64,000 bases of DNA from Aquirufa aurantiipilula (GTDB taxonomy: Bacteria; Bacteroidota; Bacteroidia; Cytophagales; Spirosomataceae). Location: the NCBI RefSeq assembly GCF_019923745.1, contig NZ_JAANOG010000002.1, forward strand, positions 62,001-126,000. The letters are read 5' to 3'. Positions 18,058 through 38,027 of the stretch are shown here, one piece after another; positions within the stretch are counted from its first letter, which is position 1; each line of letters starts with the position of its first letter. Made by a program: the position numbers and the translations under genes. The notes under the pieces are model-generated. The model worked only from the letters and a program-made list of their open reading frames with translations. It did not search any database and had not been told where the DNA came from.

Positions 18058-18131
18058 GGTCCGGTAGTTCAGTTGGTTAGAATACATGCCTGTCACGCAT
18101 GGGGTCGCGGGTTCGAGTCCCGTCCGGACCG
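18058..18131 (+). tRNA. tRNA-Asp (anticodon GUC)
   Basis: 74 nt without encoded CCA. The acceptor arms GGTCCGG and CCGGACC pair perfectly. The anticodon arm is CATGC-CTGTCAC-GCATG with GTC in the loop. The T arm is GCGGG-TTCGAGT-CCCGT and the discriminator is G. The gene is intact. Its last 12 bases plus one more are copied at 38015-38027, making it the integration target of the element that follows. Confidence 0.97.
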
Positions 18132-18132
18132 C
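18120..18132 (+). other. attL core at the tRNA-Asp 3' end
   Basis: The 13-bp sequence CCGTCCGGACCGC is identical at 18120-18132 and 38015-38027. The left copy restores the tRNA 3' end, the usual outcome of tyrosine-integrase insertion into a tRNA. Confidence 0.85.
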
Positions 18133-18173: not shown

Positions 18174-18221
18174 TGCCTGGTGCTAAATGGGGTGCTACAA
18201 ATTGGATTTCACCTTGAATCC

Positions 18222-20923: not shown

Positions 20924-21175
20924 AATAATAGTATCTATTTCTTGAACATTTCAAATGTATATTGGTCAATTATAGAACTACTAATTTTAAATTATGAATT
21001 CATGTAATATATGTAATTACTATATATATATACATGTTGTTCAGGTAATTGTAAATTTTAAGGGGCCTTTAGTTACAAATGATAGATTTCAAAACAATGT
21101 TTAATTTTTCACCCGAAAGTTATGTTTGACATCTATTTAATCAGATTAGGGTTAAATCAATTTTCATTACGAAGA
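20924..21175. other. Non-coding AT-rich spacer
   Basis: Between the sensor-like gene and the integrase 3' region. It contains a TA run near 21020-21033. No gene, terminator or promoter could be supported. Confidence 0.35.
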
Positions 21176-21214
21176 GGCACTAAAATTCAATCGGAACCTT
21201 CCAATTTGATATAA
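21176..21214 (+). repeat. 39-bp dispersed repeat, copy next to the integrase
   Basis: This segment just beyond the integrase stop aligns without gaps to 37881-37919 near attR (28 of 39 identical by eye). Its first part also aligns to 25338-25360 at the 3' end of the polymerase-like gene (about 19 of 22). A shorter, doubled GGTGCTA motif occurs beside attL at 18179-18197. The copies could be integrase arm-binding sites or traces of module exchange. Confidence 0.45.
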
Positions 21215-21223
21215 ACCCAATTC

Positions 21224-22489
21224 TCACCTCAATAACCCATTCCCCACAGCCAACATACCATCCACATCTGCCTCACTTTTGATGTATTTTTGAAGGGTCG
21301 TCAACTTCTTGTGACCTGTGATTTTCATCACCTGATGATAGGGGAGACCAGCATCCACCAAAAGTGTAGCTAAGGTTCTTCTGGCCGTGTGAATTACAAT
21401 CATTTGGTATTTTTTCTTGTATTCACGGACTTTTTTACCACCTTTTGTCGATTTCTTCTCAACCGTAATTCTCATGGATGGAATGAGTTGACAGATGTTT
21501 TTAATCTCTTCTAAGATGATGGTATCACTATACGGGTCAGGGAAGTTATAATCGTATTTTTCTCCAAGTCTCCTCAACGTCTCGAATGCCGGTACCTGAC
21601 AAGTTTCACCAGTCTTTTCCGCTCTAAAGGTGTAAACCTTGGTGGTTGGATTGATTACCTTGACCAAGTTCTTTAAGTCACTCTTACGGACTCCTGACCA
21701 TAAGTACAAGAGGTATTGGTCTCTAATTCTATCATAATATGGATTGTCAGAAAAATCCAGCTCTTCTAAGTCATTTAATTCCTGTTTGGTAAACACAACC
21801 ACATCTGAATCCTCTGTGTATAGTACCTTTTTGAACTTCTTGAAGGGATTGAATGGTATTAAACCTTCATTTACTCCAATTTGGAGGAAGGCCTTAAGTA
21901 CCTTCAAGCGGTTATGTATTGTGTTCAATGACATTTGCCGGTCCTCAGTTAAAAAGTGTTCATATTCCTCAATAATGTCCATCTTCAACCATTCCTCCAA
22001 ATAGTAGTGCTTCTTTCCTTTTATCTCTTGAAATTTTTTCAATGACAAAATCAATGAGTTATACGATTGAATCGTAGAATGACTAAATTCTTTACCCTTG
22101 TTAAGTTCTTTTCCTGTTATTCTTCTAAGAGTTATTCGTTCAACCAAATCCAATAGTTTAACCTTGTTTGGTTTTTCGAAGTACTCTTCATTAGTCATGT
22201 TAGACCCTAAAAACTCAAGATATACCTCTTGGGTCGGATAGGTACTAAATGATTGATAATAAAGAGAATAAAAGGTTGCAGTAAGGTCTCTTAACCGATT
22301 CAGTCTATTCTGAATTTGACTATTCGCTTGTTTTCCTTTACCAGTCTTCATCTGTCCCATGCCCCATTCTGAGATATCAATCTTACTGTTTGCCACAGTG
22401 AAACTGAATCTCCTTTGTCCCTTGGGTTGAACACAGCACCGAATGGACCCTGTTTTCGACTTCTTGTTTCTGATATAAAATGATACCAT
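21224..22489 (-). CDS. Tyrosine-type site-specific recombinase (integrase)
   Basis: 421 residues with the Bacteroidota integrase layout: an N-terminal arm-binding part, a SAM-like core-binding domain (about 110-215) and a catalytic domain. Catalytic residues are R268 (SGVRKSDL), K292 (RAEKTGE), H367 and R370 (HTARRTLATLL), H393 (TGHKKLTTLQ) and nucleophile Y402. All are present, so the enzyme should be active and is the best candidate for the insertion into tRNA-Asp. It starts 2 nt after the stop of the helix-turn-helix gene, so the two are one operon. It lies 3 kb from attL instead of next to it. Confidence 0.96.
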   Translation of the reverse strand: MVSFYIRNKKSKTGSIRCCVQPKGQRRFSFTVANSKIDISEWGMGQMKTGKGKQANSQIQNRLNRLRDLTATFYSLYYQSFSTYPTQEVYLEFLGSNMTNEEYFEKPNKVKLLDLVERITLRRITGKELNKGKEFSHSTIQSYNSLILSLKKFQEIKGKKHYYLEEWLKMDIIEEYEHFLTEDRQMSLNTIHNRLKVLKAFLQIGVNEGLIPFNPFKKFKKVLYTEDSDVVVFTKQELNDLEELDFSDNPYYDRIRDQYLLYLWSGVRKSDLKNLVKVINPTTKVYTFRAEKTGETCQVPAFETLRRLGEKYDYNFPDPYSDTIILEEIKNICQLIPSMRITVEKKSTKGGKKVREYKKKYQMIVIHTARRTLATLLVDAGLPYHQVMKITGHKKLTTLQKYIKSEADVDGMLAVGNGLLR

Positions 22490-22491
22490 GG

Positions 22492-22782
22492 TTAATTGTA
22501 ATAATTTCGATTATACTTTGATGGAATTCTTTCCAAATCACTTTCAAGGACTAAAATCTTATGTCCAATACCTCTATTGGGAATTAGACCCCGCTTGATG
22601 TACTCACTAATTGTATTTTTTGATACACCAATTTTTTGACCAGCCTCTTCACGAGTCAGGATTCTTGGAGGAGTTCGTAATTTCTCCTCCAAGACTGCAA
22701 ACTCACTTTTCACGATATCTCTAAGTAGAGAATCCAAATCCTCACCATCGATGACATACATCGGTTTTTGTTCTTTTTTCAT
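22492..22782 (-). CDS. Helix-turn-helix DNA-binding protein, excisionase-like
   Basis: About 96 residues from the ATG at 22782. A longer reading from a GTG at 22833 is open but has no protein-like start. The core LTREEAGQKIGVSKNTISEYIKRGLIPNRGIG is a MerR/excisionase-type winged helix-turn-helix, preceded by a short helix (EDLDSLLRDIVKSEF). Such genes next to integrases usually encode the recombination directionality factor or a regulator of it. It is translationally coupled to the integrase downstream (2-nt gap). Confidence 0.8.
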   Translation of the reverse strand: MKKEQKPMYVIDGEDLDSLLRDIVKSEFAVLEEKLRTPPRILTREEAGQKIGVSKNTISEYIKRGLIPNRGIGHKILVLESDLERIPSKYNRNYYN

Positions 22783-22885
22783 GTCATTTAATTTTTGAGA
22801 GTGCCAAATGTACTGCCCACATTTGAATAGCACCGCTTGTTCTTAGTTTTTTTCAGGAATTTTGGATACCAATATTTGATTGAAA

Positions 22886-24400
22886 TTAGGCAGCCAGTTG
22901 TATTTCATCATTTGATGTGTCATCCCCAAGAACCATACTCATCCTCTTTCGACAGAATTCCACGGATTCAATATCTATATCTACTCCTAAACTATTGAGT
23001 CCATTTTGTGAAAATACTTCAAGCCCCTGCCCAGCTCCACAGTGGATGTCGATTGCAGTCATCCCAGGTAATGTATATGACTCGACTATTGTCTGATAAA
23101 CCTCCATTGGACATGGTGCATCATGGGTAAAGTTGGGGTCATATTTTTTATATTCATTTGGATTACATACTGGTGTTTCAATGACATTAGTAATTACCCT
23201 TTCCTCATCTTGTAGAAATACTCGTATTCCACCATTTTTTGATTTATGACTATTTTTTATTCCCTTTTTACCATCCTTAGTCGGTGTCATTTTTGGATTA
23301 AAAACATGGTTTCCCCCTTTCAGTTTACAAATGAAAACGGTCTCATCTGCTGGTCTGAAAAACCCATCAACTTTGGAAGGGGTTGGGTTCTCCTTAATCC
23401 ATGGACATTTACCAATGATATCTAGTCGTTCCTCCAACATTAATTCATATCGAGCCAAAACACTTTTGAATCCACCTTGATAACTCTCACCAATTACAAT
23501 AGCAATCACTCCATTCTCGTCCATAATATCTATGAGTGACATGATGAATTTTCTACAATTATTTATGTAATCTTCAACAGTAGGTTCTTGACCATACTTC
23601 ATTTCACCTTGATTTCTGTAAAGTTTCATCATCCAGTACGGGGGACTGAACATGGCAAAATTTGGTCTATACTTTTTCAGGTTTAAAAGGTCATCTGAAC
23701 TTTGGTGAAAGATTTTGGACCAAACGGCTTGATTTGATATTTCATTTTTTCTCCACTCTTTGAACAAGTTTTTTTCTTGGATTTTCTTGTCTTTTTTTAC
23801 GAGTCTATGTGCGGCATCGAGTGAAAACAAATTATTGTCCAATCCTTCGATTAATCCCAAACTGTCATCATCTTTCTCTTCATGCCAATGGATATCCATT
23901 AATTTTCGTAACGATGAACCCTTAATAGGTAAGTCAAGCAGATGACATGTGAGCTCAAATCTATCCTTACCCACTAATCCATGATGATCTTCATTATCAA
24001 AATCCTCGAACCCCAACAACTCTTTCTTTTTTCCTTGGGTCTTGCCAACTAATTCCAACATGTGTTCTGCATACTTTACCATCTCGGAGTATGACATTTT
24101 CGCCCGTTGATTACTAGTTAATCTGAATTTTACTACATCTTCTTTAGAGATATTAATAGGTAAACATCGAAGGGTTTTATGACCTAATTTTTTAGCAATT
24201 TCTAAACGGACAATGCCGTCAACAACGTAGAAAATGCCATCTTCAAAGTTTCCTAATATGGGTGTAACCTGACCAAATCGTTTCATGGTATATTCGATGT
24301 GGTCCATTTTCTTCTCCTTGTTTAATAAGGGAATCTCAGTGTGAGGTATAATATTCTCTATTGGAATATCAACTTCTTGTGGATTTAATGTTATCATCAT
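22886..24400 (-). CDS. ParB-like domain fused to a DNA methyltransferase
   Basis: 504 residues. The N-terminal 1-100 is ParB/Sulfiredoxin-like (GIFYVVDGIVRLEIAKKLGHKTLRCL). The middle holds a helical linker. The methyltransferase has motif IV SPPYW (about 252-256) before motif I DIHCGAGQGLEVF (about 451-463), the order of beta-class N4-cytosine or N6-adenine enzymes. Such fusions are common in phages and integrative elements, often as orphan methylases that protect against host restriction. Here the gene directly upstream (24482-25216) has PD-(D/E)XK-like residues, so a restriction-modification pair is possible. A hairpin precedes its start. Confidence 0.85.
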   Translation of the reverse strand: MMITLNPQEVDIPIENIIPHTEIPLLNKEKKMDHIEYTMKRFGQVTPILGNFEDGIFYVVDGIVRLEIAKKLGHKTLRCLPINISKEDVVKFRLTSNQRAKMSYSEMVKYAEHMLELVGKTQGKKKELLGFEDFDNEDHHGLVGKDRFELTCHLLDLPIKGSSLRKLMDIHWHEEKDDDSLGLIEGLDNNLFSLDAAHRLVKKDKKIQEKNLFKEWRKNEISNQAVWSKIFHQSSDDLLNLKKYRPNFAMFSPPYWMMKLYRNQGEMKYGQEPTVEDYINNCRKFIMSLIDIMDENGVIAIVIGESYQGGFKSVLARYELMLEERLDIIGKCPWIKENPTPSKVDGFFRPADETVFICKLKGGNHVFNPKMTPTKDGKKGIKNSHKSKNGGIRVFLQDEERVITNVIETPVCNPNEYKKYDPNFTHDAPCPMEVYQTIVESYTLPGMTAIDIHCGAGQGLEVFSQNGLNSLGVDIDIESVEFCRKRMSMVLGDDTSNDEIQLAA

Positions 24401-24418
24401 TTTAGTTTAATTTTAAAA

Positions 24419-24440
24419 GTTGGTAAATAAAATTACCAAC
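24419..24440 (-). terminator. Hairpin between the nuclease-like gene and the ParB-methyltransferase
   Basis: Eight-bp perfect arms (GTTGGTAA at 24419-24426 with TTACCAAC at 24433-24440). On the minus strand TTTT follows, and the hairpin ends about 18 nt before the ParB-methyltransferase ATG. It could be a weak terminator, an attenuator or an operator. Confidence 0.45.
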
Positions 24441-24481
24441 CAAGTTTGTTGATTAAAAAACGGACACTCATCCGTTAGTTT

Positions 24482-25216
24482 TTATTTTTCTATTATTGGT
24501 GAATAATATGGTACTAAAAATTCTTTTTCAGGTTTATTGAGGTAGGTTTGAAAATACATATCCCATAGCTCAAATCTTAAAGCCGTTTTAATAAATTCTT
24601 TCTTGTCTGTTAATTTAAATTCGAATACCCAGGTCTTTCCATCAACAGAAGCAACATGGTCCGCTCTTAATGATCTGGCAAAAGATTGTTTCAATTTCCA
24701 ATCAGTAGATTGTTGTGCCTCAGTTGTAAAATAATCATTTATAACCTTCTTCATTGAAAATTCTAAACCTAATTCTCCTTTTTGACCAAATGTCTTCGAC
24801 ACCTTAATAAACTTCAATCCATCGTCACCAATCCAATTTAGTTTTACAAGGTCATATTCATCACCATTAGACTTTTTGGTTATGGTTGGGTAGAAATCGG
24901 GTTCGATAACCATGATTAATCGTTTGAGTCTAGTTTTTTTAGCTTCTATAAGAAGATATATATCCTCTGGTGTTAATGCGGATTCTTTATTTTTAAAATG
25001 AAGTTTTGTTGTATAGAAATTCAACACATCTTTAACCAAAATATCTCTCTCGGCAAATATCTTTTTTCTAAAGCCGTCCAATATGTTAGCTGAGAATTTA
25101 CCGGCTTCATATTTTTCCATAATTTCCTTTATACTCAATCCTTCAATTTCATCAGCAGGAAATGATACGAACGACTTTCCATTTTTGAAGTCTAAATTTT
25201 CCAATTTGGCAACCAA
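24482..25216 (-). CDS. Protein of unknown function with PD-(D/E)XK-like nuclease residues
   Basis: 244 residues, no signal peptide. The C-terminal half has RADHVASVDGKTWVFEFKL, in which D186 and E199-F-K201 have the spacing of a PD-(D/E)XK nuclease core, followed by a helix (FIKTALRFELWDMYFQTY). The N-terminal half is helical and lysine-rich. I do not recognise a named family. It lies 81 bp upstream of the ParB-methyltransferase on the same strand, so the two may be a restriction/methylation pair. One copy of the 23-bp palindrome is 93 bp before its start. Nuclease function is inference. Confidence 0.55.
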   Translation of the reverse strand: MVAKLENLDFKNGKSFVSFPADEIEGLSIKEIMEKYEAGKFSANILDGFRKKIFAERDILVKDVLNFYTTKLHFKNKESALTPEDIYLLIEAKKTRLKRLIMVIEPDFYPTITKKSNGDEYDLVKLNWIGDDGLKFIKVSKTFGQKGELGLEFSMKKVINDYFTTEAQQSTDWKLKQSFARSLRADHVASVDGKTWVFEFKLTDKKEFIKTALRFELWDMYFQTYLNKPEKEFLVPYYSPIIEK

Positions 25217-25309
25217 CGTTTAAAGGTCTGAGTTTTTCATGTTCTACTAATTTTTTACAAATGTAGAAGAAAATATTTTTCATACAAAATATTTTGTCAA
25301 CTTTTTTAT

Positions 25310-25330
25310 CTTCGTGTAATTTACACGAAG
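25310..25330. promoter_or_regulatory. Quasi-palindrome copy 1 (perfect 10-bp arms)
   Basis: CTTCGTGTAA (25310-25319), central T, TTACACGAAG (25321-25330), followed by TTG. Same family as 27344-27366, 29630-29652 and 35910-35932. It lies upstream of the nuclease-like gene. Confidence 0.65.
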
Positions 25331-25337
25331 TTGAAAT

Positions 25338-25360
25338 GGTCTAAATTTCAATCAGAACCA
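25338..25360 (+). repeat. Copy of the dispersed 39-bp repeat (first 23 bp)
   Basis: Matches 21176-21198 at about 19 of 22 positions. It overlaps the stop codon of the polymerase-like gene at 25348-25350. Confidence 0.4.
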
Positions 25361-27159
25361 CTTTTTTGATTTATAGGAGGTTTAAAATAATTCTTACATC
25401 GGTCAATATTGGATTGAAACACCATTCGTTTTTTCTTTTCAAATTGTTTTTTGTTGGTAATCCATTTGACCTTCTTCCAGCACTTATCAATATCTTGCTG
25501 GGTCGGGTTTACTTCGATTCTGGGACACTCTCTCTTCACACCCGGCACAATACCCGTTAATCGTTTTCCTTCGTTTATAATCAATTCTTTCAATGGGTCC
25601 ACGAATTCTTCAAACGTATACAGACCATCATGTATGGTGAATAATGGTGCTTGGGGATATTCCTGATTAAATCGTCTTGAGACCTTGTTCAACATGAAGT
25701 AACTCTCTGTTCGTTGAAGGATATAGGATAATTCTTTTCCACCAATGGTTTCATGTGAATATTCCAACCATTTATTAACACCGGGAAAACATTCATTCAT
25801 GTATCGAACCATTGGATTATTATTCCTCTGTTTTTTGTCTCCATCGAATAGAATGTACATGGTACTCTTCTTGAAGGATTCTCTTTGACTTTGAAGTTCC
25901 TCGGGAGTCATATCCATATCAGAATATTTCTTTACCACGTAGGCATAATAGTCATCTTCAAATGGTAACTCTTGATATTCCTTGATACTCCTTAATTCTT
26001 TTGTATTGAAAAAAAGGCACCACATAAATGAAGAATATTCTTTATCTATTCCTTTGTTATTATTTATGTAATAATTAATGATTTGATTATTATTTCCAGT
26101 ATTACTAGAATTAACATTTATTAGATTATTACTAGATGTACCGGTACTAGTAACTACATTATCTAAAGAGGTATAACCAGTACCAGTAACTACATAATCA
26201 GATGATGTATAACCAGTAGAACTAACTGGTATATCATTACCAGTATTCCAGAACTCATCCAACATTCCTCTATTATATAATCTGTCATACATTTCTGGAT
26301 ATATGGTCTTCAGATTATAACCATCCCCAGTAGCTTTAATGAATTCATCATTCATTACAGTTGCTAGTAAATAAGGTGCGGATGACTTAACATCCAGTCC
26401 AACCAGTGGTCTTCCATTACATAGAATGAATGGTCTAAGTATTTTAGGTAAATGAGTATAGACAGAATTTAACCGGTGATTCTTACCAGATACCATAGGA
26501 TTTAAATCACCTGTATCCACTTTATTAATCAGATATAACCATCTTCCAATTAGATTTTGTATTACCTTGATTTGGTATGGATTGTTATTGATTACCCGGC
26601 TCATTAATACATGATACATATTGGTAACATAGACATATACCAAAGGATTAAAGGATAATTGGTACTGGGTGAACTGGTTTATTAGAAAATCATACTTTTT
26701 CATCATATCCATACCATCCTTGTAGTTGGATTGGTATTTCATGATTTTAGCAACCATTTTAGAGTCCTCAGGTAATGATTTGTATTCAATTTCACCAGTG
26801 TTATACTTATCGGCTAACCAGAAACTCATACATTTCCCATTGACCTGATATGAGTCATCAGTTAGGATTACCGGGTCATTTGTATCCATAAGAATATCCC
26901 TAGCCTCGTAATATTCCCGTGTACCAAGAATCTGTTTCATTTGGTCTGAACTCATGAACCTACGGTATTGATTGTTCTTATAGAACTCATAGTTCTCGTT
27001 ATGTATCACAACACGTGATAGAATGTAATAGATTCTGTATTTCAGGTTATGGGATTTGGTTTTAGATAGATTTAACCTTGAAATAATAGATTTTACATCC
27101 ACAGATGTGGGAACGGTTAATCTTATACGATGATTTCCAATTTTTGTACTTTTTGACAT
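25348..27159 (-). CDS. Putative family-A-like (TV-Pol-type) polymerase of the mobile element
   Basis: 603 residues. A helical N-terminal part of about 240 residues is followed by motifs resembling superfamily A polymerases: motif A GLDVKSSAPYLLA with D256; a motif B-like helix RESFKKSTMYILFDG with R426 and K430; and motif C LFTIHDGLYT with H510-D511. Established knowledge: the TV-Pol family (Iyer, Abhiman and Aravind) is encoded by bacterial mobile elements and small viruses and may combine primase and polymerase activity. That this protein belongs there is inference from these motifs. Between motifs A and B lies an Asn/Ser/Thr-rich low-complexity insert (about 308-370) with a 12-residue repeat. 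A terminator-like hairpin directly precedes the ATG. Confidence 0.6.
   Translation of the reverse strand: MSKSTKIGNHRIRLTVPTSVDVKSIISRLNLSKTKSHNLKYRIYYILSRVVIHNENYEFYKNNQYRRFMSSDQMKQILGTREYYEARDILMDTNDPVILTDDSYQVNGKCMSFWLADKYNTGEIEYKSLPEDSKMVAKIMKYQSNYKDGMDMMKKYDFLINQFTQYQLSFNPLVYVYVTNMYHVLMSRVINNNPYQIKVIQNLIGRWLYLINKVDTGDLNPMVSGKNHRLNSVYTHLPKILRPFILCNGRPLVGLDVKSSAPYLLATVMNDEFIKATGDGYNLKTIYPEMYDRLYNRGMLDEFWNTGNDIPVSSTGYTSSDYVVTGTGYTSLDNVVTSTGTSSNNLINVNSSNTGNNNQIINYYINNNKGIDKEYSSFMWCLFFNTKELRSIKEYQELPFEDDYYAYVVKKYSDMDMTPEELQSQRESFKKSTMYILFDGDKKQRNNNPMVRYMNECFPGVNKWLEYSHETIGGKELSYILQRTESYFMLNKVSRRFNQEYPQAPLFTIHDGLYTFEEFVDPLKELIINEGKRLTGIVPGVKRECPRIEVNPTQQDIDKCWKKVKWITNKKQFEKKKRMVFQSNIDRCKNYFKPPINQKSGSD
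26140..26217. repeat. In-frame 36-bp tandem repeat in the polymerase-like gene
   Basis: Encodes TGYTSSDYVVTG then TGYTSLDNVVTS then TG (residues 315-340), two 12-residue units inside the low-complexity insert. Confidence 0.7.
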
Positions 27160-27171
27160 GTAATAAAAAAT

Positions 27172-27214
27172 CCCTCATTATTTCACCGGTAGTGGACGGT
27201 TACTTTAATGAGGG
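27172..27214 (-). promoter_or_regulatory. Terminator-like leader hairpin of the polymerase-like gene
   Basis: Nine-bp arms CCCTCATTA (27172-27180) and TAATGAGGG (27206-27214) plus an inner 4-bp pair (ACCG/CGGT). On the minus strand the stem is followed by ATTTTTTATTAC and then the ATG at 27159, 13 nt from the stem. It has the form of an intrinsic terminator at the gene start, that is an attenuator. Confidence 0.6.
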
Positions 27215-27343
27215 GGACACTCAAACTCTTTATGGTATCAATCAGCACCACTACATACTAATTCTTACCTTTTAAAAATATATCGAAAATGGGTCAGAAC
27301 GAGAAATTTCCAATGCTAAGGAATTGCTAAGAAATCAAAACTC

Positions 27344-27366
27344 ACTTCCTTTAATTTAAAGGAGGT
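27344..27366. promoter_or_regulatory. Quasi-palindrome copy 2
   Basis: ACTTCCTTTAA (27344-27354), central T, TTAAAGGAGGT (27356-27366), one arm mismatch. It lies about 185 bp upstream of the polymerase-like gene in the divergent spacer. The rest of 27215-27581 holds a small hairpin with T-run (ATGATTT-C-AAATCAT near 27390) and no supported gene. Confidence 0.6.
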
Positions 27367-27581
27367 TTTTGTCGTAAGACAGAAGTACATGATTTCAAAT
27401 CATTTTTTAAAAAACGATGTACCGGATATCCAACTAACAATACTGGGAACCCAAATACATAGTTGAGAACCAGTGAATGATTTGTCGTAAAATAATGGGT
27501 GAGATATTGACCTGTTCGTGAAGTGTGACCAGTTCGTTTATAAAATGATAAAATCGGGATATTTATAGTTAAAGAAATACC

Positions 27582-27731
27582 ATGAAATCATTGAAATCAA
27601 AACCACTTCGTTCAAATAAAAGTATGAAAGTAATCATCACCGAAAACCAGTTGGAACGATTGTTAGATAGTTACATTTCTATATTAGAGGAGAGCCGGTA
27701 CACAAAGATGTATTCAATCAAAAAAGTATAG
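27582..27731 (+). CDS. Small protein, 49 residues, unknown function
   Basis: The ATG at 27582 runs to TAG at 27731. The segment MKVIITENQLERLLDSYISI resembles short N-terminal segments I recall from many phage proteins (IITENQLxRL), which supports reality despite the small size. A second in-frame ATG at that segment (27624) is an alternative start, giving about 35 residues. It is upstream of the minimal recombinase, same strand, and divergent from the polymerase-like gene. No function can be given. Confidence 0.4.
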   Translation: MKSLKSKPLRSNKSMKVIITENQLERLLDSYISILEESRYTKMYSIKKV

Positions 27732-27839
27732 AAAAACGAGGAGTTCCCTTTTGTACAAAAATGGCACCACAGCACAAAAACATCGATTAAACCTCAATTT
27801 CAAGGATTTTGAAAAATAATTCATCATTAGCTTGACCAG

Positions 27840-27879
27840 TAGTTCCAAAAGCGGTAGCCTAGCGCTAAAAAAGGAACTA
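27840..27879 (+). promoter_or_regulatory. Inverted repeat enclosing the ribosome-binding region of the minimal recombinase
   Basis: TAGTTCC (27840-27846) pairs with GGAACTA (27873-27879) and inner AGCG (27850-27853) with CGCT (27863-27866). AAGGA, a rare good Shine-Dalgarno for this window, lies in the right arm just before the ATG at 27882, so the hairpin could hide it. It could also be a recombinase site. Confidence 0.5.
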
Positions 27880-27881
27880 TT

Positions 27882-28451
27882 ATGACAACCAAAATCAAAA
27901 CATCCGAACACTTAGAGGAACACGAACTCAACAAACTTTTGAAGTATCTCTATCAGAATGAACAATGGACATATTACTTATTTGTTCGACTTGGTGTATC
28001 CACCGCATTAAGGTATTCTGACCTATCAAAAATCACATGGTCCATGGTATTACATCAAGACAGATTTATCATCAAGGAGAAGAAAACGGGCAAGGTTAGA
28101 GAGATACCAATCCAACCCGAACTCTCTGAGAAGATTAATATGGTATATGAAAAAATGGACAGACCCAGTCAATCCGATTATTTGATACCATTACATATTA
28201 GAACCATCAATAAACAGATTAAACTTCATGCTAAGAGAGCTGGTTTAAAGAAGGTACATCTTTCAAGTCATAGTCTAAGAAAGACATTTGGAAGAGAGGT
28301 CTATCGTAGGAATGGAGAAAGTGAATCCTCCTTGGTGAAACTTTCATTATTATTCAATCACTCAAGTACAGCAATCACTCGTGTCTATTTATCAATTACC
28401 AAAGAAGAAGTTCAAAATCTGTATCAAATGCAAGACCTTTTTGTTTATTAG
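27882..28451 (+). CDS. Minimal tyrosine recombinase (catalytic domain only)
   Basis: 189 residues, less than half the usual integrase, without an N-terminal core-binding domain. All catalytic residues are visible: R44 (STALRYSDL), K68 (KEKKTGK), H130 and R133 (SSHSLRKTFG), H160 (LFNHSST) and Y169 (RVYL). Catalytic-domain-only recombinases are known for inversion and other local switches in bacteria and phages. The start is fixed by AAGGA at -9. Its last 20 codons and about 55 bp of flank recur at 29047-29160 after one intervening gene. Confidence 0.92.
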   Translation: MTTKIKTSEHLEEHELNKLLKYLYQNEQWTYYLFVRLGVSTALRYSDLSKITWSMVLHQDRFIIKEKKTGKVREIPIQPELSEKINMVYEKMDRPSQSDYLIPLHIRTINKQIKLHAKRAGLKKVHLSSHSLRKTFGREVYRRNGESESSLVKLSLLFNHSSTAITRVYLSITKEEVQNLYQMQDLFVY

Positions 28452-28669
28452 AGATTAGGCTGAGATTTCATATTGGGATACGGCCGATCATGAAAATAAT
28501 TTAACCGGGAATATCACAGATTTAACAACCTTTCTATAATTTAACATCAGAGGTTTTTAGGTGAGCCAAAATCATACCATGGGTCCACAATTAAAGAAAA
28601 TCAATACATTAAATATGTTTTATAATCATCAATAATACGTTTAATTTATCTTCAAATCTGAAAAAACTT
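28452..28669. other. Spacer after the minimal recombinase
   Basis: The first part (to about 28510), containing ACGGCCGATCA and CCGGGAATAT, is the left copy of a sequence repeated at 29107-29165. No gene was seen. Confidence 0.4.
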
Positions 28670-29041
28670 ATGTCATACTTAGAAGATATTAAAAAATTGA
28701 AAGAGGAACTTAACATTATTAAGTCTAAACTAGATGATTTAGAGTTAAGGCAAAATCGATTCATAAATAATCATGCAATTATTGAAAAGGAAGATTTTTC
28801 CAACTTGGAAATTAAACACCAAGAAAACGGCCAAATATTATTTCATTATAAAAACTGCTCCTTTTTGGAGGAGGAAAATTCCGAGTTACATAAAGGATTA
28901 TTAAATGGGTCACTCAATTATATTGTTTTAAACAAGTTGCCAAATTCTTTAACATGGCAACATAGGTATTCTATTTCTCACAAATCGTTATCTCCAACCG
29001 AGGCTGCAATCATATTGAATTTCACAATTAACAATAGATAA
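28670..29041 (+). CDS. Coiled-coil protein of unknown function lying between recombinase-tail repeats
   Basis: 123 residues. The N-terminal 30 (LEDIKKLKEELNIIKSKLDD) form a clear coiled coil; the rest is mixed alpha/beta (ENGQILFHYKNCSFLEEEN) with no recognised family. No signal peptide. It is placed exactly between the two copies of the recombinase 3' end, so it may be a cassette or an insertion between paralogous recombinases. It is on the same strand as the recombinase. Confidence 0.6.
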   Translation: MSYLEDIKKLKEELNIIKSKLDDLELRQNRFINNHAIIEKEDFSNLEIKHQENGQILFHYKNCSFLEEENSELHKGLLNGSLNYIVLNKLPNSLTWQHRYSISHKSLSPTEAAIILNFTINNR

Positions 29042-29046
29042 AATTT

Positions 29047-29106
29047 TTAATCACCAAAGAGGAAGTTCAAAATCTGTATCAAATGAAGGACCTTTTTGTT
29101 TATTAG
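29047..29106 (+). pseudogene. C-terminal remnant of a second minimal recombinase
   Basis: In frame it reads LITKEEVQNLYQMKDLFVY then TAG, against SITKEEVQNLYQMQDLFVY in the intact recombinase. Several differences are silent, which suggests descent from a paralogous coding gene rather than a recent duplication. Similarity continues about 55 bp past the stop. The catalytic residues are absent. Confidence 0.8.
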
Positions 29107-29629
29107 GTTCAACTAAAAGATTTCAAATTCAGATCCGGCCGATCACCAATTAAACAATACCGGGAAAACAATCCAATATAAAGATTCCCGGTAATATAAG
29201 TTTTGGATCAGGGTCCTCAGGTGAAGAAAAAATCCTCCTAAAATTCTTTGGTGGACATATTGAAAGGAATCCCGGTAATATTTGACTTGCCGGCAGATCG
29301 TCTGAAGATGATCCCCGTACAGGTGGTGGGTGCAGGGAGGAAGTGCCGGGAGGAGCGGTATCCCAAATTGCTTTAAGCCAATTTAACCTTATAAAGTGGG
29401 TGATAATCAAATAGTCGAAATAAAATCTGCCGGAAATTTTCACTCAACATGGGTATCCCCCAAAATACCTAAAGAATCAAATGAAATGGGGAAATCCGTT
29501 TTAAAAATTCCAGCAAAATTTTTAGAAATCAAGACCTCAAGGATTTATATATATGACCTCAAGAACATTAGGACCTTCATTCAGACCCAGCTTTGTTTAA
29601 TCTATAATATGAAAATTAAGAAAATTCGG
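29107..29629. other. Non-coding island with GC-rich, repeat-bearing core
   Basis: It contains the inverted repeat TACCGGGAA/TTCCCGGTA (29158-29166 with 29185-29193), a second TCCCGGTAATAT at 29270-29281, the palindrome TGCCGGCA near 29288, and GATCGTCT/AGATGATC near 29298-29315. The stretch 29285-29360 is visibly richer in G and C than its neighbours. Open frames here have unnatural composition and I do not call genes. Confidence 0.4.
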
Positions 29630-29652
29630 ACTTCCTGTAATTTGAAGGAAGT
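29630..29652. promoter_or_regulatory. Quasi-palindrome copy 3
   Basis: ACTTCCTGTAA, central T, TTGAAGGAAGT, two arm mismatches. It is followed by TG, like the TTG or TTT after the other copies. Confidence 0.55.
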
Positions 29653-29873
29653 TGTGGTAACCAAAAACATTATAAATCCCAACCACTATAATCCACATCC
29701 TTTTCAACGAATCTGCACAAGTAATGGGTGGTTTGTGCTTGTATATGTCTTAGTTTCATGGAAGTAAAATTAAGGTATATAAATCCAAAATAATATTTTG
29801 GATACGTTTTTTATTTATAAATATTATTTGTAGATTTATGTGTAGGAAAAATCTCTATTTACGCCAAAACGAA

Positions 29874-29881
29874 TACTTTTG
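29874..29881 (+). promoter_or_regulatory. -7 element TACTTTTG
   Basis: Exact TAnnTTTG match about 69 bp before the ATG at 29950. No -33 TTG at the usual distance. With the terminator at 30172-30207 it delimits a transcription unit of about 320 nt. Confidence 0.4.
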
Positions 29882-29949
29882 GTATTTTAAATTGAGGGTT
29901 TTGTTTTCCTATTTAAATTTTAAGTTCTATAATTATAAATTTTCAAAAA

Positions 29950-30141
29950 ATGCAAAAATTAGAAGCGATTAAACCTGGCCCTAAGCCAAACAAAGTTGAT
30001 GGTACACCTGACAGAAGACAGCGTGTGACAATTCCCAACAAACCAAATCATCCTCAATTGAAACCCCATGTTCACAAGCCGGGTGATTCGAAAAATTCAG
30101 CTTTATTAGTCCTTCAGGTGAACAAGTTCCATCTGAATTAG
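29950..30141 (+). CDS. Small basic, proline-rich protein of unknown function
   Basis: 63 residues beginning MQKLEAIKPGPKPNKVDGTP, rich in Pro, Lys, Asn and His, no hydrophobic segment. No family recognised. Support for expression comes from a -7 element at 29874-29881 and a strong terminator at 30172-30207. The unit could alternatively be a regulatory RNA with an incidental frame. It lies at the left edge of the defence-like block and convergent to the Mrr-type gene. Confidence 0.45.
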   Translation: MQKLEAIKPGPKPNKVDGTPDRRQRVTIPNKPNHPQLKPHVHKPGDSKNSALLVLQVNKFHLN

Positions 30142-30171
30142 TAAAGTTTCTATTCACGGAAATTTTGTTGG

Positions 30172-30210
30172 ATAGACTAGCTTTGGAGAGAACCTAAGCT
30201 AGTCTATTTT
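30172..30210 (+). terminator. Intrinsic terminator
   Basis: Perfect 12-bp arms (30172-30183 with 30196-30207), 12-nt loop, then TTT after the stem. The A/T-rich ends make it partly bidirectional, also serving the convergent Mrr-type gene. Confidence 0.8.
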
Positions 30211-30245
30211 AGTATTTGATTTAATATTTTGAAATGATTTTAAAT

Positions 30246-31241
30246 CTAAATCGGCAATAATGATTTCTTGAACTTCAATTTACCTGCAAGGTCATCATTG
30301 TCATCATTGTACATTGAATCAATGATTTTTTCGTATTGCTCAATGAATATTTCTGTGAATCTATTCCCATCTATAAGTTGAATCTGTTCTCTTTCCTTAT
30401 CAGTTGCACTCTCAATTGCCTTCTTATTAAATGATGAAAGAGTGATAAAACAACCTTTGAAGTCTCTTTTTAGAGCACCTCTAAAGTTTCGAATTTCCTT
30501 CTCACCAATGACACCTTTATCATATCGTTTTACTTGAACTTGTAGGTTAATCGATGCTACACCTGATACATCAAGTATTCCCTCAAAGTCAATTCCCCCA
30601 TCACCAACTTTACCAATTTCCTGAGTGGGCTCAAATCCAAGAGTTCGAAGAAGGTACGAAACTAAGTACTCAAACTCTGTGGCATCTAATTCAAGAAATC
30701 TTTTTCGTATAAGTTCAAAATTTGACACCGGTTCTAATCTATAAACATCATTGCTAACTTCACTTTTCTCAATTAGTCTATAATGGACTAATATTTCATC
30801 TGCTGATGTAATTTTAAAACATGTCAGAGAGGACCGGAGTGTGTTTTGTAATGGAACAGACAAATTATGTCTATCAATTTTCTCTTTAAACCACTTTACT
30901 TTTTTTCTCCAAGCGTAAGGAGAAGAAGAGTCAATTTGGAAATATTGGTCACTCTCTATCGTACCAACGAGTAATTGACTATCTGTGAATGGAGAAACAA
31001 CTATATCACCAATATTCATTTCATTAACAAAACGATAAATTTGACCCACATTTTGATTGATACTCATGTTAGGGTCATTGGGGTACACTTCCCTATACTT
31101 TACTTTCAGAAACTCCTTATCCTGTAAATCCCAACCTTGGGGATCTTCATCAAACCATCCTATTCCAATGTAAGAATTCGATTCGAAAGAACTTGTGTAA
31201 AGACCAAAACCAGCTCTAAGTACAAAGACATTTTTTTTCAT
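30246..31241 (-). CDS. Mrr-type restriction endonuclease
   Basis: 331 residues. The C-terminal half is an Mrr-like PD-(D/E)XK domain: E191 (TEFEYLVSYLLRTLGF), D218 (GDGGIDFEG) and the Q236-V-K238 variant core (LQVQVKRYDKG), followed by the helix with KEIRNFRGAL. The N-terminal 170 residues (VFVLRAGFGLYTSSFES, NIGDIVVSPFTD) look like a sensing domain of the kind fused to type IV enzymes that cut modified DNA. It starts 21 nt after the MmeI-like gene stop, so the two are probably one operon read leftward. Confidence 0.88.
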   Translation of the reverse strand: MKKNVFVLRAGFGLYTSSFESNSYIGIGWFDEDPQGWDLQDKEFLKVKYREVYPNDPNMSINQNVGQIYRFVNEMNIGDIVVSPFTDSQLLVGTIESDQYFQIDSSSPYAWRKKVKWFKEKIDRHNLSVPLQNTLRSSLTCFKITSADEILVHYRLIEKSEVSNDVYRLEPVSNFELIRKRFLELDATEFEYLVSYLLRTLGFEPTQEIGKVGDGGIDFEGILDVSGVASINLQVQVKRYDKGVIGEKEIRNFRGALKRDFKGCFITLSSFNKKAIESATDKEREQIQLIDGNRFTEIFIEQYEKIIDSMYNDDNDDLAGKLKFKKSLLPI

Positions 31242-31262
31242 AGGACAATAATTCTACCTTGA

Positions 31263-34007
31263 TTAATTAGTTTTCTTTTTCTTTCCCTTAGGTTGAGTAA
31301 ATAGATCTGCCGTATATTTTTCATATAGTTCAAACAAAAATTCCATTCGTTTAGCCTCATTGGTAAACGGTTGTGGTCTATATGCCAAGTCAACTGCTTT
31401 ATCTAACTCATTATGAGCTTTAACCAAGGCAGGAGGCATTGTCATAGGATCATATAAATCAGCTAAAGAACTCTTTGGATATTGAGATCTTGTTTCTAAA
31501 ACTCTTTGTGCTGCTATTTTTATTGCTTGGATGTGCTTTTCATTTGGAAATTCAGGCCAAGGGAAATTATTATAAACTATTGAATTTGAATATCTGTAAT
31601 CACTTTTAAGTCTACCACACAAATAACGAACCCAAGACATATGCATAGTAGATGACAACATTCCAAAATGATAAATTGATGCATTAGGTAAAGCAATACA
31701 GCTATCATTTACTATATAGTCATTTGTAAAAAAACCCAATGGTAAATACCTTCTGTTTTCGGATGATGTTCTTGGGAAAAGAAGAAAATCTGAGTCTGGT
31801 TGACGTGGTTCTGCAAATAACTGTGGCGTTAAAGAAGTTTGTCGAGTTTGAATTTTAGTACTCGCTTCTCTGTATCTAACAACACTCTCCACTCTTTCCT
31901 TTACTAAAGGTAAATTTCTGATTTCTTGGGGTTCTGCATTTGCTAAATACAATACCCAACGATTTCTTCCATTAATAAACTCGTCTCCAGATAATATAGG
32001 TTTAAAAAATTTCTCAGCATTTGGTTCTTTTTTAAGAAATTCCAATTTTTCTGTCTCTGTAAATAAATAAAAACCTCCATCTACTATTTTATTACCGTAA
32101 AGCATTTCGGGTACATTACAAATGGGTTTAGTCCTTGAAAGAACGGCAAAATCCTTTCCTTCAACCAAGTAAGGATTAATATTTTTCACTTTAATTTCAT
32201 GTGCTTCACCTTTAATATCTTCGTATTCAAAAATGCTTTTATTTGTTGTGTCGTAATTTGCAAACCCAATTATGACAACATGTACCGCTGCATTTGCTTT
32301 TGCTTCATTACTCCAATTAAAAGTTCGATGAGCAAAATGTATTTTAATTTTATAATGATTAAAGAGTAAATTCCATAAGATTCCTACTTGTTCTCCCTGT
32401 GTAATTGAATTAGTAGATACAAACGCCACTTTGGTTTTCGTGTTTTGAATTAGTTGTGCAGCTTTTAAATACCAACCCGCAACATAATCCATAATTCCCG
32501 CTCCCTTAACCCCTACAAATATTTTTTCTAAATCTTTTTTCTGATTTTCGTTTTGATTAGATTTTCCTATAAATGGAGGATTTCCAAGAATGTAAGAGAG
32601 TTCATTTTTTGAAACTAAATTCTCCCAGTCTATTTGTAATGCGTTACCGTGAACAATTTTTGCAGACTTCTTTAAAGGTAAGCGGACGAAGTATTGTCCA
32701 AATTCATTACTAATTAGCATATTCATTTGGTGATCAATCAACCACATAGCAACTTCTGCAATTCGAGCAGGGAATTCTTCGTATTCAATTCCATACATCA
32801 TATCCACATCAAGCAACATAATGCTGCTTACATCCAATACCTGTTGCCCACCTTTATAAATGACTCTTAAAATTTCTAATTCTAATAATCGTAATTCACG
32901 GTAAGTAATTACAAGGAAGTTTCCACAGCCACAAGCGGGATCGAGAAATTTTAGAGTACTTAATTTCCTATGAAATTCGGGAAGTTTGTTTTTATTGTCT
33001 TTGATACTCTCAAATTCTTTCCAAAGGTCATCTAAAAAAAGTGGTTTGATCAATTTTAGGATGTTGGTTTCACTTGTGTAATGAGCACCTAAGTTTCTGC
33101 GTTCCTGAGGATTCATTACACTCTGAAACATTGATCCAAATATGGCAGGAGAGATCTTACTCCAATCTATATAACAGCAGTTTAGTAATGCTTGGCGCAT
33201 TTTTGCATCAAAACTTGCTGTGGGTAAGATCTCCTCAAATAGTTTTCCATTTACATAAGGGAACTCTGATAATTGCTCATCAAGGTTTTTAAATCGATTT
33301 TCTTTGGGTGTATTTAATACCTGAAATAATTCTTGTAATTTGGCAGCGAGGTCGCTACCATCTTCCGAGGTTCTTTGTTCTATATAATCCTGAAATTGCT
33401 GTTTATTGAAAATCGTAGTATCCTCAGCAAACAATAAAAATAGTATACGTACTAAATAGACCTCCAAATGATGGCCTGTGTAGCCGATTTCTTCTATACT
33501 GTCGTGAAGTTTACCCATTAATTCCGCTGCTTTTATATTAGCAGGGTCTTGTTCCTTATAAACCTTCTTTTGGTAACCTAATAGATACCCAAAATGCTGA
33601 ACATTATTTACAAGTTCGTTCAGTTTAAATTCTATCGTTTTATCCTCCTCAAGGTCGTAAAGTCTAAAATTCTCAAAGTCCGAAACAAGAATGTATTTAG
33701 GTAATTCATGTTGCTTGAGTCCGTGTGTGTAATCAATTGCCTGTTGATAAGCTTTGGTAAGGTTTTTACCAAGACTCTTCATTTCTATTAATATTGTACC
33801 TTTCCAAAGTAAATCGATGTAACCATCTTTTTCATCTAATTTTTTTACCCTATGCTCAAATGTTGAAACCCTTTTACTACTGATACCAAAAACATTGAAA
33901 AATTCAACTAAAAAAGGTTTTGCATCAGCCTCTTCATTTGAAGTACCTGCCCATTCTTTGGAAAAATTCAAGGCCCTATCTTTAATCTCATTCCAACTTA
34001 ATGTCAT
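31263..34007 (-). CDS. MmeI-like (type IIL) restriction-modification enzyme, methylase and nuclease in one chain
   Basis: 914 residues, the normal length for this family. The N-terminal nuclease carries D65 and E75-M-K77 (YIDLLWKGTILIEMKSLG). A helical spacer follows, then the methyltransferase with motif I LDPACGCGNF (about 355-364) and motif IV NPPF (about 476-479), the gamma-class N6-adenine order. The target-recognition region (about 600-830, with SSENRRYLPLGF) and a C-terminal helical part (PQPFTNEAKRMEFLFELYEKY) complete it. Such enzymes methylate one strand and cut at a distance. The recognition site cannot be read from sequence. Confidence 0.92.
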   Translation of the reverse strand: MTLSWNEIKDRALNFSKEWAGTSNEEADAKPFLVEFFNVFGISSKRVSTFEHRVKKLDEKDGYIDLLWKGTILIEMKSLGKNLTKAYQQAIDYTHGLKQHELPKYILVSDFENFRLYDLEEDKTIEFKLNELVNNVQHFGYLLGYQKKVYKEQDPANIKAAELMGKLHDSIEEIGYTGHHLEVYLVRILFLLFAEDTTIFNKQQFQDYIEQRTSEDGSDLAAKLQELFQVLNTPKENRFKNLDEQLSEFPYVNGKLFEEILPTASFDAKMRQALLNCCYIDWSKISPAIFGSMFQSVMNPQERRNLGAHYTSETNILKLIKPLFLDDLWKEFESIKDNKNKLPEFHRKLSTLKFLDPACGCGNFLVITYRELRLLELEILRVIYKGGQQVLDVSSIMLLDVDMMYGIEYEEFPARIAEVAMWLIDHQMNMLISNEFGQYFVRLPLKKSAKIVHGNALQIDWENLVSKNELSYILGNPPFIGKSNQNENQKKDLEKIFVGVKGAGIMDYVAGWYLKAAQLIQNTKTKVAFVSTNSITQGEQVGILWNLLFNHYKIKIHFAHRTFNWSNEAKANAAVHVVIIGFANYDTTNKSIFEYEDIKGEAHEIKVKNINPYLVEGKDFAVLSRTKPICNVPEMLYGNKIVDGGFYLFTETEKLEFLKKEPNAEKFFKPILSGDEFINGRNRWVLYLANAEPQEIRNLPLVKERVESVVRYREASTKIQTRQTSLTPQLFAEPRQPDSDFLLFPRTSSENRRYLPLGFFTNDYIVNDSCIALPNASIYHFGMLSSTMHMSWVRYLCGRLKSDYRYSNSIVYNNFPWPEFPNEKHIQAIKIAAQRVLETRSQYPKSSLADLYDPMTMPPALVKAHNELDKAVDLAYRPQPFTNEAKRMEFLFELYEKYTADLFTQPKGKKKKTN

Positions 34008-34042
34008 AAAAAATTATATTAAAAGTATTCTACTTGTAAGTT

Positions 34043-34492
34043 TCATTTTAGTAAATCCCATCGTTCAAGATAATCCCCATTGAAATCTTTAAAATTGCGA
34101 ACGTCAGAATCAATGTGTTTTTCACCATTTTTACCCGGTGTAATTAACCAGTCATGATGAGTCTTCTTAACCATTTTTGCAAGATCAATACTTGGAACTA
34201 TATAATAATCAGGTCTTTGGTTTAAACCTTTAAGCCCAACAAAAATGTAAAACATCGATTTTGAAAACTTATTTTCAACTTTTTTATTGAGAATCCACTT
34301 TCTGTTATTTACCTGTGCTGTTTTGACTTGTATTGCAAAAATTTTATCATTGTCATCAAGTTTGGATGCATGGATATCAATACTATCATTATTCCTTAAA
34401 GTAATAGATGCCATATAACCTCTTAGGGACAGCTCTGCTGCCACAAAATATTCTCCTGCAATCCCTGTTATTCCTTTTGATAATTTCTCCAT
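34043..34492 (-). CDS. Small PD-(D/E)XK nuclease-superfamily protein
   Basis: 149 residues. GIAGEYFVAAELSLRGY is the typical helix of Holliday-junction-resolvase-like and DUF4365-like proteins. D39 (NDSIDIHAS) and Q55-V-K57 (FAIQVKTAQ) form the nuclease core. It has no target domain, so it may act on structured or partner-bound DNA, or be an accessory of the restriction operon. It begins about 485 nt upstream of the MmeI-like gene's start on the same strand (36-nt gap between genes), so one transcript is likely. Confidence 0.75.
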   Translation of the reverse strand: MEKLSKGITGIAGEYFVAAELSLRGYMASITLRNNDSIDIHASKLDDNDKIFAIQVKTAQVNNRKWILNKKVENKFSKSMFYIFVGLKGLNQRPDYYIVPSIDLAKMVKKTHHDWLITPGKNGEKHIDSDVRNFKDFNGDYLERWDLLK

Positions 34493-34576
34493 TATTCGTT
34501 TGACTTAAATAACTAAATAAAATTCATATTTAAACAATTACTACATTTTATAGTCTCCAAATACGAATGTATAAAT

Positions 34577-35827
34577 TTAATGGACTTGGGTCTTTTCAAA
34601 ATACAAATCTGAGTACTGTGAACCAGTCAGGTCACCTCTAACTGGTAGGTACTCATACAGTAACTCGAAGCACCACAGTTTAAAAATTTCTTCTTTGTTC
34701 TGAGGATTATTGTTTAATAAATGTATCCATTCATTATCTCTATTTTCATTTCCTGATTTTTGGAAATTTTGAGGTGTGAAATGACCAGCTTGATATTTTG
34801 ATTCAAAAATGTATTCGTACTTCCAAAACATGTTCTTTATACCTTCAGAAGAAACACCGAATGGGTTCTCTGATTCTCCTTTGAAATAACCATACATACT
34901 ATAATCAGAATTGCTGTGTTGGATAGAATTGGTGTCGAATGGTGAATAAACTTCAAAATCATTGATAAAATCAATACTATTTAACGAATGGTATGATACT
35001 ATCTTGAATCCATAATGTTCGTTAGATTGCTTCAAAAATAATTCTAAGAGCTGTTCCTTGGTTTGATTATTGGTTTGTAATAAGTTTTGGTTATCCAATA
35101 GGTTCCTGAATGATTTCGAATATAGCCCATATTGAAAGAATTCTTCCCATTTAGATTTAGAGTACTTCTGATAAAATTCCTTTTCAAAAACTGACTCAAT
35201 CCACCAAAACTTATACCTTAATTCATTTTTATCTGTTTTAAATGGATTCTCAACCTCACCTTTATAACATTTGTACACGCTATAATCATTACTCTGTAAC
35301 ATTCGTAATAGGTTACTTTGTGTTATTGAGACCTTTGGTGTTTTTCCGAAATTTGTATGTTCCAAAAAATCATTGATAAGTTCCTCACTTAAATTTTCCA
35401 TGAAATTCTTGTAGGCAATAGTTAATTCCGTGATTGGTCCTTCAATATTTCCGTTTGATTTGGATTTGTGCCTGTACCGGCTGATTTCATGTTCTTCGAA
35501 GACAACCCATTTTCCTTTGATGTATTCTAATCTGAAATCAGGTTCGTTTTCATCTGAATACTCATCGGAGTAAATTTTACAGAATAGTTCTAAATAATCA
35601 CCTTCATTGGGAGTGTATTCAAAATCAAAGACATTATATGTATTCAGTCTCTTTTTAATCTTTTTGATGATGTACCGGTCATATAGGTTTGGATTACTAA
35701 ATTCTCCCAATACATGTAACTCAGTTTTATTTTCTATGAATCGATGTAGGACCCAATGCGGTTTTGTCCAGTCAACTTCAGATTCACCACATGTACATAG
35801 CTTGAAAGGGCCATTTAGGTCACACAT
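34577..35827 (-). CDS. Protein with a duplicated domain, unknown function
   Basis: 416 residues, cytoplasmic. The N terminus has a CxxCxCG-like cluster (FKLCTCGESEVDW). Two copies of an about 85-residue unit follow (about 179-265 and 307-385), each with DYS-Y, YKGE or FKGE then ENPF, a helix with FW--E--FE and a C-terminal LL-NN segment. The conserved N-terminal cysteines suggest metal binding. No family recognised. It is the first gene of the leftward defence-like block and lies divergent to the DUF488 pair. Confidence 0.6.
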   Translation of the reverse strand: MCDLNGPFKLCTCGESEVDWTKPHWVLHRFIENKTELHVLGEFSNPNLYDRYIIKKIKKRLNTYNVFDFEYTPNEGDYLELFCKIYSDEYSDENEPDFRLEYIKGKWVVFEEHEISRYRHKSKSNGNIEGPITELTIAYKNFMENLSEELINDFLEHTNFGKTPKVSITQSNLLRMLQSNDYSVYKCYKGEVENPFKTDKNELRYKFWWIESVFEKEFYQKYSKSKWEEFFQYGLYSKSFRNLLDNQNLLQTNNQTKEQLLELFLKQSNEHYGFKIVSYHSLNSIDFINDFEVYSPFDTNSIQHSNSDYSMYGYFKGESENPFGVSSEGIKNMFWKYEYIFESKYQAGHFTPQNFQKSGNENRDNEWIHLLNNNPQNKEEIFKLWCFELLYEYLPVRGDLTGSQYSDLYFEKTQVH

Positions 35828-35867
35828 ATATTGATATTAAATAGGTTAGTAAATCTAACAAATTCCA

Positions 35868-35898
35868 TCATTTAAATACTTTGTGTGACTTTAAATGA
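35868..35898. promoter_or_regulatory. 9-bp inverted repeat in the divergent spacer
   Basis: TCATTTAAA (35868-35876) and TTTAAATGA (35890-35898) with 13 nt between. It lies between the duplicated-domain gene and the DUF488 gene, next to palindrome copy 4. Candidate operator. Confidence 0.5.
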
Positions 35899-35909
35899 CG
35901 AACAAAATC

Positions 35910-35932
35910 ACTTCCTTTAAATTACGGGAAGT
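35910..35932. promoter_or_regulatory. Quasi-palindrome copy 4
   Basis: ACTTCCTTTAA, central A, TTACGGGAAGT, two arm mismatches. It is 43 bp upstream of the -7 element of the DUF488 gene. A half-site AAAGGAAGTTTT follows at about 35963-35973. Confidence 0.6.
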
Positions 35933-35974
35933 TTACACAGAGCAAAATTTTAATCAATAATAAAGGAAGTTTTA

Positions 35975-35982
35975 TAACTTTG
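35975..35982 (+). promoter_or_regulatory. -7 element TAACTTTG, leaderless start of the DUF488 gene
   Basis: Exact TAnnTTTG match ending 4 nt before the ATG at 35987, so the transcript should start at about the start codon. Confidence 0.5.
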
Positions 35983-35986
35983 AATT

Positions 35987-38014: not shown

Positions 38015-38027
38015 CCGTCCGGACCGC
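38015..38027 (+). other. attR core, 13-bp copy of the tRNA-Asp 3' end
   Basis: Identical to 18120-18132. No other tRNA part is present upstream, so it is a border repeat and not a broken tRNA. Confidence 0.85.

Follow-up and report, generated by a model that had tools for sequence, protein, structure and literature searches.

A recombinase slot in a tRNA-Asp element of Aquirufa aurantiipilula that looks like a footprint of gene swapping

The window, i.e. the whole stretch of DNA that was analysed, comprises 64,000 nt of the freshwater bacterium Aquirufa aurantiipilula (C24:62001-126000 of the 3.08-Mb genome, which is in 70 contigs). It contains an island of ~19.9 kb (18120-38027) bordered by 13-bp repeats at a tRNA-Asp gene, which ARAGORN places at 18058-18132. 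The sequence behind the right 13-bp copy (CAACT...) is similar to what follows tRNA-Asp in G034 C1, where a relative of the island's 421-aa integrase (84% identical) adjoins the tRNA gene. With an integrase and a direct repeat of the tRNA 3' end at both borders, the island is a tRNA-targeted integrative element. Its general features are:

18120..18132, + strand: inferred left end of the island (attL), the tRNA-Asp 3' end, a 13-bp direct repeat with 38015-38027
21224..22489, - strand: 421-aa tyrosine integrase of the island (Phage_int_SAM_5 and Phage_integrase)
22492..22833, - strand: 113-aa HTH_17 protein (domain match), putatively excisionase-like
22886..24400, - strand: ParB-like/DNA methyltransferase fusion (N6_N4_Mtase; weak ParB and methyltransferase matches)
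25348..27159, - strand: 603-aa protein, probably replicative (one sub-threshold Pfam hit)
38015..38027, + strand: inferred right end of the island (attR), a 13-bp copy of the tRNA-Asp 3' end

The 603-aa protein belongs to no NCBIfam or PHROGs family and has relatives in 8 of 38 Aquirufa genomes, its own included. On reading, its motifs DVKSS and FTIHDG resemble family A polymerases, and the gene contains two 36-nt tandem copies (26140-26211, 81%) at a point where length varies among relatives. The right part of the island (30246-37720) carries restriction-modification and related cargo, judging by a reading of the ORFs. A second element of the same kind is found in the window's own genome (L105, G000 C41:256001-270000), where a 205-aa serine recombinase is accompanied by a 73% relative of the 244-aa protein, and in A. 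beregesia transposase-like ORFs were read directly behind the conserved part of the element (L007, 7224-8423).

The segment considered in the following lies behind the 603-aa gene and is made up of these features:

27272..27545, no strand assigned: noncoding block A, left side of the slot (91% identical to L062 3760-4032, before a serine recombinase)
27547..27725, no strand assigned: block A2, also beside other slots (similarity to L107, L113 and L114)
27743..27768, no strand assigned: candidate RecY core site, 139-114 bp upstream of RecY, from pieces common to G677
27840..27879, no strand assigned: second dyad before RecY, TAGTTCC-N26-GGAACTA, putative accessory half-sites or operator
27882..28451, + strand: RecY, 189-aa tyrosine recombinase (PF00589, 1.6e-18)
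28389..28451, + strand: repeat copy 1, the C-terminal tail of RecY (repeat search, codon comparison)
28452..28511, no strand assigned: flank of copy 1, apparently a diverged start of block B (B1; shuffle tests)
28670..29041, + strand: CC123, 123 aa with a long N-terminal helix (94% identical in G024)
29044..29106, + strand: repeat copy 2, apparently the tail of an older RecY, without catalytic domain (repeat search, codon comparison)
29126..29355, no strand assigned: noncoding block B, right side of the slot (93% identical to L062 4775-5004, behind a serine recombinase)

RecY is a tyrosine recombinase (PF00589; R, K, HxxR, H, Y), with R44, HxxR from H130, H160 and Y169 at the motif positions, which we take to be catalytic, Y169 presumably being the catalytic tyrosine. 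Its best NCBIfam match, XerA_Arch, scores 63.4 bits (2.3e-17) against a cut-off of 220, so it does not count as a Xer (XerC/XerD/XerA) equivalog. The sets searched for RecY overlap; matches came from 2 of 99 relatives, 2 of 222 genomes of the family, 21 of the 395 genomes of the class (own included, threshold 1e-10) and, at 1e-15, from 6 of 64 genomes in the family of G638. The closest relatives outside the genus are those of G638 and G677, members of another family (63%). A search of genome contigs gave two loci, in A. beregesia (100%) and in an Odoribacter MAG (37%), and among plasmids relatives of less than 60% identity occur in 509 records, mostly from Enterococcus and Bacillus. Viral contigs yielded no relative of RecY, CC123, the 603-aa protein or the methyltransferase, and no match to the two DNA patterns searched there.

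CC123 has no Pfam, NCBIfam or PHROGs family and was found in 2 of 59 genomes (its own and G024) and, in the set of 395, in its own only. Its structure model is weak (pLDDT 59) and without a PDB match at E<=0.001, but the first ~30 residues are predicted as a fairly confident helix (3-33). We guess that CC123 serves the element as a small accessory or regulatory protein. Rfam gave nothing at the gathering threshold over 27000-30300.

The two sides of CC123 carry a direct repeat of 63 nt (28389-28451 and 29044-29106, 90% identical, spacing 655), which extends to 28387-28490 and 29043-29145 at 83% identity when the flank behind the stop is included. The score was reached by 0 of 500 shuffles for the whole repeat, and likewise for the post-stop flank alone, and a query of 28380-28530 matched these two places only in the 3.08-Mb genome. 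The initial annotation had described the final 20 codons of the recombinase and about 55 bp of flank as recurring on either side of a 123-residue gene. The repeat and the enclosed gene are borne out, CC123 ending 2 nt short of copy 2 here and lying between the copies in G024 as well, but the coding part common to both copies is 18 codons rather than 20 (I172-Y189 plus stop, 57 nt, 4 differences), and the similarity extends ~60 nt past the stop. As was also claimed, several differences are silent: of the three changed codons two are synonymous (ATT/ATC and GAA/GAG) and one exchanges Q for K (CAA/AAG), three of the four changed bases being third codon positions. Copy 2 retains frame and stop and looks like former coding sequence, in line with the earlier proposal that two paralogous recombinase ends met here, a proposal for which these data are suggestive only because the base differences are few. 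Since copy 2 starts behind the codon of Y169 and contains no catalytic tyrosine codon, it is a decapitated tail. Beyond the repeat, what follows copy 1 may be more of a diverged block B: the score of 28452-28640 against contig C3 of G024 was reached by 0 of 500 shuffles, and that of the extension alone by 7 of 500 against the window and 2 of 500 against C3, as compared with 188 of 500 for a control stretch.

That the repeat is an assembly duplicate or due to chance is hardly credible. There are two copies only and the genome is in 70 contigs, but the copies differ, no shuffle reached their score, and an independent strain, A. beregesia 50C-KIRBA (G024, contig C5), has the same order of genes and repeats, with 5-9% divergence in the sequence that the copies enclose. 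Because this second Aquirufa strain shows the same layout, the suspicion that the second repeat is a simple assembly duplicate, absent from relatives, is refuted.

What surrounds the repeat was found with a different content elsewhere. In a sister element of the same A. beregesia genome (C3), a 217-aa serine recombinase takes the place of RecY and CC123 between block A (91%) and block B (93%), with no other ORF of at least 80 aa in the slot, and because the two blocks flank a serine recombinase there, the locus is a swapped resolvase slot. Three other Aquirufa loci (L107, L113, L114) match block A2 at 68-71% identity over 175-179 nt, and serine recombinases have portions of block A or A2 nearby in several Aquirufa loci other than this one, C41 of the window's own genome among them; the A2 locus of G018 has no serine recombinase in the first 4 kb, its contig ending ~0.5 kb behind A2, and two loci of G036 are likewise close to contig ends. 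Three groups can be distinguished among the serine recombinases compared; members of different groups are 24-27% identical or match over no more than 11 residues. On reading by eye, block B (29126-29355), which has no Rfam match, contains an 8-bp inverted pair, ACCGGGAA/TTCCCGGT.

Identity falls at the 3' end of the recombinase gene in several slot comparisons, and this end is therefore a recurrent mosaic edge, although not in every pair. Between C41 and G007a, identity is 0.93-1.00 in the gene, then 0.67 and 0.50 at its 3' end; it also drops there between G007a and G016, and both pairs show a short recovery ~100-300 nt behind the gene. The comparison of C41 with G016 gives merely a dip. In the 1.8 kb compared between C3 and G019, similarity runs from about -91 to +626 of the 654-nt gene (~28 nt before its end). 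RecY and C3/G019 show a left edge where the module starts, but C41 versus G007a does not.

Because this slot is occupied by other recombinases in related elements, the locus looks like a footprint of gene swapping and not like a proven gene-trading site. Our preferred reading, to which we give a probability of about one half, is that the resolvase slot of a tRNA-Asp element has been re-filled by recombinase modules, RecY-CC123 having displaced an older RecY whose tail persists as a scar. The slot between blocks A and B would take up whole modules (upstream site plus gene) of the serine or tyrosine type, and the incoming unit, consisting of RecY with its upstream site, B1 and CC123, would have been laid over the older RecY, of which the last 18 codons were left behind together with the native block B. 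The second tail would then be a by-product of the displacement. This agrees with block B behind copy 2 being 93% identical to that of C3 and with the flank of copy 1 being a diverged B. The resemblance of copy 2 to former coding sequence and the drop in identity at the 3' end of serine-type recombinases count in its favour, as do the tract identical between the strains and the upstream palindromes of the RecY family, both described below. Against it, our searches turned up neither a donor nor an ancestor in which the second RecY is intact, and the layout is confined to two loci that are close relatives of each other; the renewed rise of identity behind the gene in two pairs, the mere dip in C41 versus G016 and the missing left edge in C41 versus G007a also speak against it, as do the lack of the CACT/AGTG motif upstream of RecY here and in G677 and the weak conservation of the candidate core, whose centre is altered in G024. 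The order of these events, RecY's own core, its role as a resolvase and the means of exchange are what we infer from sequence comparison. Given that the slot is taken by serine recombinases in relatives, the most likely task of RecY is to resolve dimers or multimers of the excised or replicating element, which would take place at an upstream palindromic core. The order RecY-B1-CC123-tail-B would also suit two related elements or slot units that once stood head to tail and lost a stretch running from immediately behind CC123 to roughly codon 171 in the second RecY. Copy 2 does lack all that precedes the tail, and a small gene of 95-149 aa follows the resolvase in five loci of the serine type, but no tandem relative was seen and CC123 was found in no other place in the sets of 59 and 395 genomes, so that we regard such a deletion in a tandem array as rather unlikely.

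The locus offers a readable case of mobile elements swapping the type of recombinase in a fixed slot with the breakpoints preserved. No title or abstract describing this slot was found in a literature search outside which subscription papers lay, so its unpublished status is unproven.

Comparison of the two strains with the RecY layout places one further edge inside the repeat. From 27755 to 28420 the window and G024 show 0 substitutions in 666 sites, in contrast to 8.9% over 25348-27754 (8.8% in the 603-aa gene, 9.8% in block A, 8.5% in A2); at that background, 666 identical sites have a log10 P of ~ -27. This tract coincides with the recombinase module, spanning from the centre of the candidate core to within the tail repeat. 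Behind it, substitutions amount to 3 of 31 in the remainder of copy 1, 8.7% in the flank and 4.7% in CC123 up to 28987, followed by a second identical tract (28988-29179, 0 of 192) and 24.8% in the rest of block B. It is possible that both tracts were converted from one donor without CC123. However, the second tract begins 56 nt before copy 2, and mosaicism is not limited to this part of the element, 24429-25081 being another identical run, for which reasons we do not rely on a two-tract gene conversion. Because of such other runs, exchange is taken to be general in the element.

Where RecY might act is suggested by its family. Regular palindromes such as TTTCACTTTGTACAAAAGTGAAA stand upstream of distant RecY relatives, and the pattern CACT-N6-13-AGTG occurs in 19 of 29 windows upstream of RecY-family genes. 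Among 268 control windows taken at these loci, 4 match. The 29 are not all independent, some of them stemming from a common genome or genus. A looser dyad score (9 or more) gives a weaker excess (11 of 29 versus 32 of 335). In the displayed loci having CACT/AGTG, the regular copy is single and lies 79-217 nt before the gene. The motif is missing upstream of RecY in the window and in G677, which have in common GTTC-(C/T)-CTTTT and AATGGCACC near -139/-114, as well as a dyad right before the ATG. The 50 nt before the RecY ATG are conserved with G677 (score reached by 0 of 1000 shuffles), and the distal part, i.e. the candidate core, is by itself weakly conserved (11 of 1000). The centre of the distal dyad in the window, TTTGTACAAAA, is found likewise in one distant relative (L117), and the left edge of the 666-bp identical tract (27755) falls on it; this palindromic centre is altered in G024 despite an identical RecY and not kept in G677. 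We infer that the distal dyad may be the RecY core and the proximal one accessory or an operator. In that case the site moves together with the gene, and no site in the tail is required.

Such an arrangement has a counterpart in the TnpI/IRS system of Tn4430-type transposons, where a tyrosine recombinase serves as resolvase with a palindromic core next to its gene, and the extra half-site-like motifs are similar as well. RecY differs in being of 189 aa, in residing in an integrative element, in swapping with a serine recombinase and in having a predicted function only. The upstream sequences described so far yield a candidate palindromic site for this family of very small tyrosine recombinases, which is represented in several families of Bacteroidota.

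The initial annotation had suggested that there could be a cassette-like exchange site in the recombinase tail. Spelled out, RecY would act on the 3' tail of its own gene, and CC123 together with one copy of the tail would form a 655-bp cassette that is inserted or excised with RecY unbroken. In favour of this, one gene is flanked by direct copies of a gene end, excision would restore the full RecY frame, and the identical tract shared by the strains begins at the candidate core centre and ends within the tail (28420). We nevertheless consider this unlikely. The palindrome of the RecY family is located upstream of the gene, and when the 39,734 positions of the island are ranked by resemblance to the candidate core, the two tails come only at about 307th and 314th (ties unresolved). 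The different genes expected between the same repeats in related elements were not seen in the loci examined, CC123 occupying the place in 2 of 2; it is the slot as a whole that varies, with a serine recombinase in G024 C3 and changing sequence directly behind the recombinase in other elements. G677 has no direct repeat of the tail, and 27 distant relatives, many with <=1.5 kb of flank and L117-L119 standing outside the test, showed no direct repeat of their coding tail below E 0.05 among the best four matches per locus, a few giving weak copies at E 0.054-0.056. One of them (L015/L070) has a 35-nt direct repeat of the downstream flank, and several of the 27 loci have inverted repeats.

In integrons, too, a recombinase adjoins genes bounded by repeats. 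The locus shares this trait, but with one gene, two repeats in the genome, a coding tail as the repeat and no array, and no differing genes were found between the repeats. Gene-end integrative elements are likewise similar, in that the island has the tRNA-Asp repeat at its ends and CC123 lies between repeats of a gene 3' end; the CC123 segment, however, lacks an integrase, and an empty site was not seen. Were the tail a site after all, the recombinase gene would have a minimal cassette system as part of its own sequence. An extension of that idea, in which the core (27743-27768) and both tails are three direct sites, RecY moves itself and CC123 as cassettes, and the coding tail is an attachment site carried by every cassette, with RecY as the first, seems distinctly improbable to us. 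Tail-tail recombination could delete CC123 and restore an intact RecY end, with or without the Q-to-K exchange depending on the crossover point.

In XerA, loss of the C-terminal helix stops recombination (PMC5357621, PMC3646895), and the repeated RecY tail would correspond by position to this helix. RecY resembles XerA and other single-recombinase Xer systems in its best family match, but it lies far under the family cut-offs and its site is apparently on the element, beside the gene.

Variability directly behind RecY was also observed in the other family and speaks in favour of a cassette: 17 nt behind RecY, G638 has a 554-nt stretch with a 167-aa gene that is missing at the same place in G677. 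Because the RecY of G677 carries an in-frame stop, a deletion in a decaying copy is as likely there as an insertion in G638. Separately, G638 has 65-nt direct repeats (94%) around two small ORFs (L063, 1162-1226 and 2014-2078); the repeats end in a terminator-like hairpin, the enclosed ORFs look like a toxin-antitoxin pair, and the repeats could be the border of another small insertion.
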